The translations under genes and the position numbers were made by a program. Below, piece after piece: positions 18,166 through 40,390 of a DNA stretch of 40,598 nt. The first letter of the stretch is position 1, and each line of letters opens with the position of its first letter. Under the pieces are notes generated by a model. It was not told where the DNA came from. It saw only the letters and a list, made by a program, of their open reading frames with translations, and ran no database searches. The DNA is from an uncultured Eubacteriales bacterium (GTDB lineage: Bacteria > Bacillota > Clostridia > Oscillospirales > Acutalibacteraceae), in contig ONAX01000015.1 of NCBI GenBank assembly GCA_900315875.1, forward strand, positions 1 through 40,598, given 5' to 3'.

Positions 18166-18200
18166 ACTGACAACTGACGTAACTACAAAAGCCATCCGGC

Positions 18201-18277
18201 GGCAGCCAGCAGAAACTCATGGTGATACAGAAAAAATAGATGTCGCTACAAAACCACTATCTCGGCTTGCGCCGGGC
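18201..18277 (+). repeat. 77-bp dispersed module, copy 1
   Basis: Same length as, and differing at 9 positions from, 20565-20641, with no gaps. It begins GGCAGCCAG and ends GGCTTGCGCCGGGC. No open reading frame is shared and the substitutions are mostly transitions, so a non-coding repeat is more likely. Confidence 0.85.
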
Positions 18278-18371
18278 TGATTTTGTAATAACCGATGGTT
18301 TTGTTATTGACACGGTAACGTCAGCGAGCCGCCGGTGCCGATTCGCGTTTGTCACTGCGCAGTGGTGGGGG

Positions 18372-20331: not shown

Positions 20332-20339
20332 TAAATCCG

Positions 20340-20369
20340 ACGGCTCCCGGAACGTGGGAGCCGTTTTTG
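20340..20369 (+). terminator. Terminator of tmk-metY
   Basis: A 9-bp perfect stem (ACGGCTCCC, 20340-20348, with GGGAGCCGT, 20356-20364) followed by TTTTG. Confidence 0.88.
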
Positions 20370-20497: not shown

Positions 20498-20563
20498 CGC
20501 GAATTGACAGCGCAGGCTCTGCGCCGGAGCGATTGTCACGAACATGGAGCGGCAGCTTGCCGC
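20498..20563. repeat. Two adjacent hairpin cassettes
   Basis: First: box CGCGAAT (20498-20504), 5 nt, then a 15-nt hairpin (20510-20524) with stem GCGCAG/CTGCGC and loop GCT. Second: variant box CACGAAC (20537-20543), 5 nt, then a hairpin (20549-20563) with stem GCGGCA/TGCCGC and loop GCT. The gap 20332-21163 holds no gene. It contains the metY terminator, these cassettes, the 77-bp module, a nested inverted repeat, a long module shared with 33021-33179, the 53-bp tandem repeats and the trmFO promoter. Confidence 0.85.
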
Positions 20564-20564
20564 C

Positions 20565-20641
20565 GGCAGCCAGTAGAAAATTACGGTAATACAGAAAAAA
20601 CAGATATCGCTGCAAAACTACTATCTCGGCTTGCGCCGGGC
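20565..20641 (+). repeat. 77-bp dispersed module, copy 2
   Basis: Ungapped partner of 18201-18277 with 9 differences over 77 positions. It directly follows the second hairpin cassette. Confidence 0.85.
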
Positions 20642-20673
20642 AGTACTTGTAGTGCCGCTACCTTGGTCACTGA

Positions 20674-20720
20674 CACGGGGGCGGGCCACAGGGCTGGCGC
20701 CCTGAGTTCTCTCCCCCGTG
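20674..20720. repeat. Nested GC-rich inverted repeat
   Basis: Outer arms CACGGGGG (20674-20681) and CCCCCGTG (20713-20720) enclose inner arms CAGGGC (20689-20694) and GCCCTG (20699-20704). A cruciform-like fold is possible. No T-run is present. Confidence 0.65.
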
Positions 20721-20782
20721 AACCCCCTCCCCTTACCTGCTTTCACCGCCCCGGTCTTAATAGCAACGCTACTCCGCCCCAT

Positions 20783-20930
20783 TGCGGTTTCAGGCCGACG
20801 ATTTTTTTGTAATTGTATGCACGGAATTTCTGACTTAGGACGTTGAAGATATTTTTTGAAATAACAGAACCGCTATTAACTAAGACCGCGATCAGCCAAC
20901 TTATGGTGCTGATTCAGAGCGAAGCGGAGC
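20783..20930. repeat. Long dispersed module shared with the yqeK upstream region
   Basis: Runs parallel to 33021-33170: TTGCGGTTTC then a CACGGAA box, CGCTATTAA and finally CAGAGCGAAGCGGAGCTGA. It is more diverged than the 77-bp module. A shorter third copy is at 40255-40330. No shared reading frame was seen. Confidence 0.65.
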
Positions 20931-21053
20931 TGAACGATTATCGCGAACAGGGTGCAGCGTCACGCTGCAGAGCGAAGCGGAGCTGAGCGATTATCGCGAA
21001 CAGGGTGCAGCGTCACGCTGCAGAGCGAAGCGGAGCTGAGCGATTGTCGCGAA
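20915..21053. repeat. 53-bp tandem repeat, two full units and one partial
   Basis: Units start at 20915, 20968 and 21021. The first two differ at one position; the third follows the consensus for about 33 bp and then switches to a different hairpin cassette. Each full unit contains a CGCGAAC box and a hairpin with stem GCAGCG/CGCTGC and loop TCA (20954-20968 and 21007-21021). Confidence 0.9.
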
Positions 21054-21074
21054 TCGACAGCGGAGGCACTCCGC
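21048..21074 (+). repeat. Hairpin cassette upstream of the trmFO promoter
   Basis: Box CGCGAAT (21048-21054), 5 nt, hairpin 21060-21074 with stem GCGGAG/CTCCGC and loop GCA. The identical 15-mer occurs in inverse orientation at 32892-32906. It ends 18 nt before the trmFO -35. Confidence 0.85.
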
Positions 21075-21092: not shown

Positions 21093-21121
21093 TTGCTTAT
21101 TTATCAAAACTGTGGTACAAT
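21093..21121 (+). promoter_or_regulatory. Sigma-A promoter of the trmFO-smc-nadD run
   Basis: TTGCTT (21093-21098), 17-bp spacer ending ACTGTGG, TACAAT (21116-21121), 42 bp before the trmFO ATG. The same ACTGTGGTACAATA string occurs at the 15499 promoter. Confidence 0.75.
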
Positions 21122-32807: not shown

Positions 32808-33206
32808 TGGGTGCAGCGTTATCCCAAGGGCACTTCCTTCGGGCGCACGCTGCAGAGCGAAGCGCCGGCGAGCCGCCGGTGCCGATTCGCGGCGGAGTGC
32901 CTCCGCGGTCAATTCGCGTTTGTCGCTGCGCTTACGCTCCGCTCTGAGTGCGAGCCGTAAGCTCACTGGTCGCGGTCGTAGATTATAGTCAATTAAATTT
33001 TTTGTCAGGGTAACGCTTTTTTGCGGCTTCGGGCTGATAAGTTTATTCGTAATGGTACGCACGGAAGTTAAGACTTCAGACGTGGAAATTTATTGATAAA
33101 ATAGAATCGCTATTAAATATGGACGCGGCCCTTCCAAGTAGCGGTACGCAATCAGAGCGAAGCGGAGCTGAGCGATTGTCGCGAATCGGCGCCGGCGGCT
33201 CGCCGG
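32808..33206. repeat. Mosaic intergenic repeat block upstream of yqeK
   Basis: The 499-bp gap 32788-33286 has no gene. In order: a cassette with stem GCAGCG/CGCTGC and an enlarged 29-nt loop (32813-32853); a reverse cassette with stem CCGGCG/CGCCGG (32865-32879) and its box ATTCGCG (32885-32891); a second reverse cassette with stem GCGGAG/CTCCGC (32892-32906) and box 32912-32918; a 54-bp module (32960-33013) shared with 17911; a long module (33021-33179) shared with 20783; and a forward cassette (box 33180-33186, hairpin 33192-33206). It ends 13 nt before the yqeK -35. Confidence 0.85.
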
Positions 33207-33219
33207 TGATGGGGAAGGG

Positions 33220-33248
33220 TTGCAAGATTGAGTTAGTTGTTGTATAAT
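33220..33248 (+). promoter_or_regulatory. Sigma-A promoter of yqeK-rsfS-leuS
   Basis: TTGCAA (33220-33225), 17-bp spacer, perfect TATAAT (33243-33248), 38 bp before the yqeK start. Confidence 0.78.
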
Positions 33249-40254: not shown

Positions 40255-40348
40255 TTGATTTGATATTATTGCTCTGCTATTAACTATGGACGCGGCCATT
40301 CCAAGTAGCGGTACGCAATCAGAGCGAAGCGCCGGCGAGCCGCCGGTG
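40255..40348. repeat. Short mosaic repeat copy upstream of tRNA-Gly
   Basis: Its first part (TTAACTATGGACGCGGCC, from about 40280) matches the 33021-33179 module. It then ends with a 29-bp stretch (40320-40348) identical to 32853-32881, holding a reverse cassette (40332-40346, stem CCGGCG/CGCCGG, loop AGC) without its usual CGCGAAT box. The cassette ends 2 nt before the -35 box. Confidence 0.82.
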
Positions 40349-40377: not shown

Positions 40378-40390
40378 TATTTACCGATGA

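Follow-up and report, generated by a model that had tools for sequence, protein, structure and literature searches.

Why should a hairpin keep its geometry to the nucleotide while the sequence of its stem changes from copy to copy? This question is raised by the window analysed here, the whole 40,598-nt stretch of a contig from an uncultured Eubacteriales bacterium, in which the original prediction described eight intact hairpin cassettes, a ninth without its box and a decayed tenth. All eight were located (hairpins at 20510, 20549, 20954, 21007, 21060 and 33192 on the plus strand and at 32865 and 32892 on the minus strand), and each has the claimed geometry: after a box CGCGAAT, CGCGAAC or CACGAAC come 5 nt and then a 3-nt loop closed by a perfectly paired 6-bp stem, which gives a cassette length of 27 nt (box, 5 nt and 6-3-6 hairpin). 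The hairpin lacking a box at 40332 and the decayed cassette (18321..18347, minus strand, box at 18347) are likewise present.

On the plus strand ahead of trmFO, a cassette with box CGCGAAT, spacer TGACA and hairpin GCGCAG-GCT-CTGCGC (20498..20524) is followed by one with box CACGAAC and hairpin GCGGCA-GCT-TGCCGC (20537..20563). Further along the same strand lie an end module, CAGAGCGAAGCGGAGCTGAACGATTAT (20915..20941), ahead of a cassette with box CGCGAAC and hairpin GCAGCG-TCA-CGCTGC (20942..20968); a 26-nt end module (20969..20994), which together with a cassette makes a 53-nt repeat; a cassette with a stem identical to that at 20942..20968 (20995..21021); another 26-nt end module (21022..21047); and, outermost towards trmFO, a cassette with box CGCGAAT and hairpin GCGGAG-GCA-CTCCGC (21048..21074). 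Apart from these cassettes, a terminator-like hairpin with a T run (20339-20365) stands directly behind the O-acetylhomoserine sulfhydrylase gene. The stretch 32865..33206 is a complete paired element made of two inverted units, with cassettes pointing away from the middle part on either side. Its left end, on the minus strand, consists of two cassettes that follow each other in tandem at 27 nt, 32865..32891 (box CGCGAAT, hairpin CCGGCG-GCT-CGCCGG) and 32892..32918 (box CGCGAAT, hairpin GCGGAG-GCA-CTCCGC), and a left end module reading CAGAGCGGAGCGTAAGCGCAGCGACAAA on that strand (32919..32946); its right end, on the plus strand, consists of an end module (33153..33179) and a cassette (33180..33206; box CGCGAAT, hairpin CCGGCG-GCT-CGCCGG), the outermost one towards yqeK. 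Beside this element, the stretch 32811-32864 contains CCCAAGGGCACTTCCTTCGGGCGCACGCTGC, with near variants in relatives, and is perhaps another small GC-rich repeat family. A truncated element (40260..40346, no strand assigned) retains the right half, an end module ending after AGAGCGAAGCG and the box-less hairpin CCGGCG-AGC-CGCCGG, and lies ahead of tRNA-Gly at 40390.

The cassette predicted originally is thus a real unit, but that description missed the larger paired element at 32865-33206, the 27-nt tandems, and the position of the outer edge at promoters and, in certain genomes, at tRNA 3' ends. Most window copies are preceded by an end module, AGAGCGAAGCGGAGCTGAGCGATTGT or CAGAGCGGAGCGTAAGCGCAGCGACAAA, and the cassette is the terminal part of a unit of about 90 nt; an alignment of 34 rows from nine genomes has the end domain and the cassette in common. 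Units also occur as divergent pairs, found at several loci in the same genome with a spacing of 288-291 nt, and many are single. The two ends of the window element align, imperfectly, as inverted copies, that is, as terminal inverted repeats of the kind that characterize MITEs. As single-stranded DNA with DNA parameters, 32865-33206, the sole divergent pair that was folded, forms one long hairpin (-96.1 kcal/mol versus -60.5 for shuffled sequences, z -8.8). For its right half folded separately (33100-33206) there is no gain over shuffles (z 0.15), and for four individual cassettes, each with a short flank, the gain is modest (z -0.7 to -3.8). A search with the 261 nt that separate the inner cassettes of the window gave 60 matches, ranging from full length down to the end module alone and in many cases truncated on the left; a left-truncated copy of the right half of the middle, 74% identical to 33021-33177, lies at 20782..20939 on the plus strand. 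Because some elements have a second repeat of 92 nt (18196-18287 and 20560-20651, 85% identical) where the left half would be, the middle appears to be a mosaic of alternative modules. The end modules (20915-20941, 33153-33179 and those of relatives) are rich in GCGAAGC, GCGCAGC and GCGGAGC, the GNA mini-hairpin motif of unusually stable DNA hairpins. The sole aligned unit with box CACG, locus L079 of the window's own genome, also has CGTG for CGCG about 55 nt upstream, so that alignment columns 38 and 95 hold CG in 33 rows and UA in one; from the letters of this single case, a compensatory pair between end domain and box is possible.

The window's own genome (G000; 2.26 Mb, 104 contigs, 98.5% complete) contains many further copies. 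A covariance model built from the eight copies, the check proposed with the original prediction, gave 88 matches at E<=1 in these 2.26 Mb, nine of them within the window; since overlapping tandem copies can be missed by the model (32887-32923 is absent from its matches), arrays are undercounted. A 12-mer neighbouring the box, GATTNTCGCGAA, chosen without regard to the hairpin, matched 35 times versus none for the reversed pattern; a perfect stem followed at +5 in 28 of these, a stem with one G.T in three and with one mismatch in one, the remainder being unpaired (two) or cut by a contig end (one); the unit is therefore no product of chance. Called ORFs are overlapped by 12 of the 70 cassettes at the genome's own loci, and by 13 of 72 in the window plus 40 stretches from relatives, though 603 of about 705 kb (about 86%) of that sequence is called coding. 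The search extended to related genomes found matches at E<=0.01 in 49 of 61 genomes of the genus and none in 12; counts, which are lower bounds from up to 111 scored candidates per genus genome and up to 45 per other genome of the bacterial family, range from at least 1 to at least 114 in the 49. Outside the genus, two of 148 family genomes (G146 and G101) had matches at E<=1e-4, and an identical 27-mer was found in another genus with other flanks. By TrmFO, the closest named relatives are uncultured Ruminococcus sp. MAGs (best, RUG14860). Window positions 33093-33206 had no match in plasmid and phage collections, and an exact 30-nt pattern had none in a collection of genome contigs from which records very near the window's genome are possibly absent; a 14-mer searched against 150 family genomes matched the window's own genome only. 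None of four exact cassette or end-module strings, and no description of the family, was found in the literature, the coverage of which left subscription papers outside.

We scanned for sigma70-like promoters (-35 beginning TTG, at least 9 of 12 consensus positions, spacer 16-18, A2 and T6 of the -10) and found one reading away from the hairpin, its -35 starting 0-39 nt beyond it, at 25 of 50 terminal hairpins of the window's own genome, the other half having no such promoter. Controls gave three at 40-79 nt, three at 80-119 nt and two on the reverse strand, and 50 shuffles averaged 1.2 (maximum 3). In relatives of the genus the same arrangement occurred at 27 of 92 terminal hairpins and was missing at 65, with controls of 5 at 40-79 nt, 12 at 80-119 nt and 4 on the reverse strand and a shuffle mean of 2.3 (maximum 6). 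The offset in the own genome is 6-24 nt before the -35 box in 20 of 26 cases. Within the window, the promoter-like sequence TTGCAA-17-TATAAT (33220..33248, plus strand) lies ahead of yqeK, its -35 being 13 nt beyond the hairpin, and the probable trmFO promoter TTGCTT-17-TACAAT (21093..21121, plus strand) has its -35 18 nt beyond; the latter scores 8 of 12, below the scan threshold, and is retained because similar promoters precede trmFO in relatives. As the sequence from hairpin to promoter varies among copies, and cassette-less relatives have similar trmFO promoters, the promoter evidently belongs to the host. In genus g102, an array stops a few nucleotides short of a promoter-like sequence (by eye).

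Outside the window, 25 genes are docked in this way; Pfam searches with 20 of them (match in 17, none in 3 at 1e-10) revealed no common function, the genes including those for YebC, an EPSP synthase family protein, a TPP enzyme, MarR, TatD, PAP2, glycerol-3-phosphate dehydrogenase, UvrD, ribosomal protein S12, Obg and FeoB; a reading of the cassettes as a gene regulon was rejected for want of a theme among these 20. Orientation was also recorded. The hairpin side faces the 5' end of the gene in 55 of 68 own-genome cassettes with a called gene on that side, and of the 70 cassettes at own loci 27 lie in divergent gaps, 30 in codirectional and none in convergent ones, 13 having an uncalled neighbour. 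Among 37 placed cassettes in relatives, 12 lie in divergent, 17 in codirectional and 8 in convergent gaps; since convergent gaps are not avoided there, we make no claim about orientation.

A second kind of border is the 3' end of tRNA and tmRNA genes. Eight distinct genes, drawn from 28 tRNA/tmRNA calls in which overlapping loci were counted repeatedly, lie on the hairpin side of a cassette that is their nearest neighbour, at most 300 nt away, and all eight turn their 3' end towards the hairpin. Six of them have a gap of 0, namely tRNA-Val in the own genome, the tmRNA of G207, and tRNA-Thr, -Arg, -Gly and -Ser of G146; the gap is 2 for tRNA-Leu of G179, and -3 by ARAGORN for the tmRNA of G101, where the stem directly adjoins the CCA. 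A search pattern combining T-arm, CCA and hairpin had 19 occurrences, spread over 9 of 398 family genomes (5 of 135 genera), the reversed pattern none. At tRNA-docked sites the box is often altered, and in several a second hairpin with a T run is visible by eye on the tRNA strand; likewise by eye, the reverse strand behind tRNAs of genus g17 bears a second hairpin and T run. At such sites the module may therefore serve as a tRNA terminator or be joined to one. Hairpin modules touching the CCA occur in several genera of the family (L401, L404, L407, L408, L412, L352, L096 and L414-L425). Possibly the hairpins at tRNA ends are an older, vertically kept terminator module ancestral to the dispersed cassette, or the reverse.

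Such docking might mean that selection keeps arrays at promoter and tRNA edges as boundary or regulatory elements (insulators, supercoil sinks or protein sites), their spread being secondary. The narrow range of offsets ahead of the -35 box fits this view, as do the CCA-end sites, with their terminator-like hairpins in some genera, and a cassette found by eye at one orthologous promoter in both G000 and G179 with a compensated stem (GCACAG/CTGTGC versus GCGCAG/CTGCGC). Against this view, the 20 docked genes compared showed no shared function. In other genomes, the strict cassette stands upstream of trmFO in three of 28 and of yqeK in two of 28, being missing from the remaining 25 and 26, and any GC-rich 6-3-6 hairpin is found in seven and three, respectively; 12 of the 61 genus genomes do without a match altogether. 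We therefore regard maintenance by selection for a boundary function as unlikely to be the primary explanation.

The tandem arrays bear on how copies multiply. Successive same-strand cassettes 26-28 nt apart are spaced by exactly 27 nt in 11 of 12 own-genome pairs and in all 22 pairs from genus relatives. Adjacent cassettes have the same stem in three of the 12 and seven of the 22, so that 24 of 34 neighbours differ, and like neighbours do not significantly exceed the 18% expected at random (P 0.11, computed with a relatives' set that includes three own-genome loci, L249, L279 and L309, and with pairs that are not independent within an array). Chimeric stems such as GCGGCA/TGCCGG and CCGGCA/TGCCGC are present and suggest that recombination occurs. 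These features could be read as passive spread, in which slippage, gene conversion and switching of replication templates among GC-rich palindromes would both multiply and perfect the hairpins without a dedicated enzyme; the chimeras and the mosaic, truncated middles would follow naturally, and palindrome correction likewise yields perfect stems. Plain slippage, however, would make neighbours alike. That they are mostly unlike points instead to the addition of different cassettes in register, or to recombination between arrays, and docking at promoters and CCA ends finds no explanation in passive spread, which we accordingly consider distinctly improbable.

Whether the hairpin acts as RNA or as DNA can be approached through its stems. 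The original prediction was to be abandoned if other copies had unpaired stems or variable box-to-stem spacing; a few copies are unpaired, and the fixed geometry is the rule in many species. When GC-rich perfect 6-3-6 hairpins were collected blindly from the window and the 40 stretches from relatives, CGCG lay 12 nt before the stem in 67, the other offsets being 4 in 26 cases (taken as the neighbouring tandem cassette read on the other strand), 13 in eight, and every other offset in at most four. The letters after CGCG vary by species (AAT, AAC, TTT, TTC, TCG, ATG) and the spacing is constant. In the proposed covariation check, which used the 34-row alignment, 99.5% of stem cells were paired, a figure favoured by the choice of rows with at least five of six Watson-Crick pairs; 38 cells showed a change in both partners, and none in a single partner. 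None of 500 shuffles equalled the alignment in paired cells, in doubly changed cells or in covariation score, whereas 36 and 407 did on the two measures based on numbers of pairs or pair types, and shifting the partner by 1 to 3 columns lowered pairing to 33-68%. One wobble was allowed in these 34 rows and none is present. Among 183 distinct cassettes, 159 have a perfect stem; in the other 24 a single pair departs from Watson-Crick (6 G.T, 4 A.C and 14 other). Compensatory change without an excess of G-U points to DNA rather than RNA: judged from these sequences, the symmetry of the stem looks like a symmetry of DNA, since selection on RNA should leave more G.U.

Of the two possibilities offered originally, a selected structure or a recombination or mobilisation unit, the second has support, in that the geometry is fixed, the stem changes are compensatory and the module is dispersed like a mobile or recombining one; the reading as a selected RNA structure has not been borne out. 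A regulatory RNA, attenuator or stabiliser would account for the perfect stems, small triloops and covariation, and for the reverse-strand hairpins that directly follow tRNAs in some genomes. It is at odds with the absence of both a G-U excess and one-sided changes, with the result that among Rfam models only tRNA-Gly reached the gathering score in the window, and with the absence of a T run behind the window hairpins, on which ground intrinsic terminators were ruled out for the window cassettes. Moreover, a promoter that starts beyond the hairpin and reads away from it leaves the hairpin outside the transcript of that gene, and an RNA function is in our judgement highly improbable. A separate candidate, a peptide-coding repeat, was considered because the 27-nt unit corresponds to nine codons, often with no stop in the CGC-GAA frame, and because near tRNAs this frame reads similarly in several genera. 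It was rejected as a general reading because the frame contains stops (in 11 of 195 distinct cassettes, and in 95 of 191 once the 63 nt upstream are included) and because the 53-nt repeats break it.

The remaining alternative concerns the mobiliser. Y1 (RAYT-type) transposases number 0 in the own genome, where mobilisation by RAYT/Y1 was therefore rejected, and are present in 16 of 61 genus genomes, including one of the 12 without cassettes; the search for an autonomous partner or transposase covered the Y1 family, and none was found. A classical REP or REPIN moved by RAYT would fit the tag and short hairpin, the inverted pairs, the extragenic location and the higher median number of matches in genomes with Y1 (30.5 versus 15), but is scarcely credible given the lack of Y1 in a nearly complete genome and in 15 of 22 genomes with at least 40 matches, a difference in counts that is not significant (P 0.21), and the presence of a cassette within 1.5 kb of just one of 12 Y1 loci. 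The search for empty sites in the nearest genome, G179 (43 contigs or stretches and three other loci), revealed no insertion point, and because its stretches are only 66-85% identical, with spacers that cannot be aligned by eye, neither an empty site nor a target duplication is demonstrated; target-site duplications looked for by eye at two-ended copies were likewise not seen.

On balance it is probable, if far from certain, that the cassettes belong to a dispersed, non-autonomous intergenic family of DNA repeats of the REP/REPIN kind. Counted in favour of this reading are their presence on many contigs and in many genomes in variable number, their mostly intergenic location, the scarcity of occupied orthologous sites, the divergent pairs, the 27-nt tandem steps, the compensatory stem changes, the 27-mer shared with another genus, and docking. 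Weighing against it are the terminal hairpins that have no such promoter, the modest folding of single cassettes, and the failure of the searches to yield an empty site, a target duplication or a Y1-type partner. The basic unit is an end domain of about 60 nt with a run of 27-nt hairpin cassettes behind it, from one to at least four; units stand singly or as divergent pairs, of which the window pair folds as one long hairpin. The mechanism proposed with this structure would run as follows. The cassette would be the exchangeable part, arrays probably lengthening by 27 nt through the gain of cassettes with different stems, a process suggested by the pattern of neighbours. Stems of Watson-Crick pairs hint that recognition or correction may act on a hairpin of DNA, either single-stranded or in a cruciform. 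A candidate nuclease or transposase acting in trans, other than a Y1/RAYT enzyme of the own genome, would cut at the junction between hairpin and box. It would also set copies beside transcription-unit borders, for the most part immediately ahead of the -35; the position is observed, and its choice by an enzyme is presumed.

A bolder version of this REP/REPIN-like reading is that mobility is guided by shape and directed to transcription-unit edges: an enzyme would add 27-nt DNA hairpins singly and in register, on the upstream side of promoters and, most visibly in sister genera, at tRNA/tmRNA CCA ends. We put this forward only tentatively, as possible rather than probable; docking could also arise from selection after random insertion. 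Aimed insertion would make the family a bacterial counterpart to transposons that target promoters or tRNA genes. In integrons, gene cassettes with attC sites also combine structure-recognised hairpins of variable stem sequence with arrays of different cassettes in register. The cassettes described here are far shorter and contain no coding part, and the likeness may be taken as a resemblance rather than a test.

Among known repeats, the tagged REPs of the GTAG and CGTC super-families (Di Nocera et al. 2013, PMC3733652) are extragenic palindromes of 20-40 bp in which one end carries an unpaired tag; their loops are short, their stems mostly of 6-9 bp, and they form inverted dimers and are spread genome-wide; the CGTC families are described there as lacking a dedicated transposase, and the repeats mainly adjoin the 3' ends of ORFs. 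Our family shares the plan of tag and hairpin, the inverted pairs and the extragenic spread, and at 27 nt, with 88 matches in the own genome that are mostly intergenic, it has the size, copy number and location of a REP. It differs in its tag, CGCG(AAT) placed 5 nt from the stem instead of GTAG or CGTC, in its tandem arrays of mixed 27-nt cassettes, and in docking upstream of promoters and at tRNA CCA ends rather than at ORF 3' ends. It also resides in Clostridia, and the main text of PMC3733652 is without the words Firmicutes and clostridi. REPINs, according to Bertels and Rainey (2011, PMC3116915), are extragenic pairs of inverted hairpin units that fold with their spacer into one joint hairpin, some standing in ordered tandem clusters. 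The inverted pair at 32865-33206 similarly folds as one, but the end domains here are larger, each end may carry several cassettes, the own genome has no RAYT, and the genus shows no clear link to Y1. The BOX element of Streptococcus pneumoniae, as outlined by Croucher et al. (2011, PMC3049150), is an interspersed composite of constant ends and a variable number of tandem modules and is over-represented between convergent genes. The cassette family is likewise composite and interspersed, with a variable number of tandem modules, but its 27-nt hairpin modules lie at the outer ends and not between the ends.

The best reading is hence that the cassette family works most like REP/REPIN sequences, with another tag, tandem arrays, a missing RAYT and another position. 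REP-like repeats themselves are common; the mixed 27-nt arrays and the docking at promoters and tRNAs are what is new. How such repeats choose their sites and whether they act on genes is unsettled, and docking of this precision offers an unusually direct clue: since the positions are exact (less than 40 nt from a promoter-like -35 for half of the own terminal hairpins, no gap to the CCA for some), the question of repeat targeting becomes a testable one. Mixed 27-nt arrays in a genome that lacks the usual transposase, moreover, point to an enzyme that is not yet recognised.
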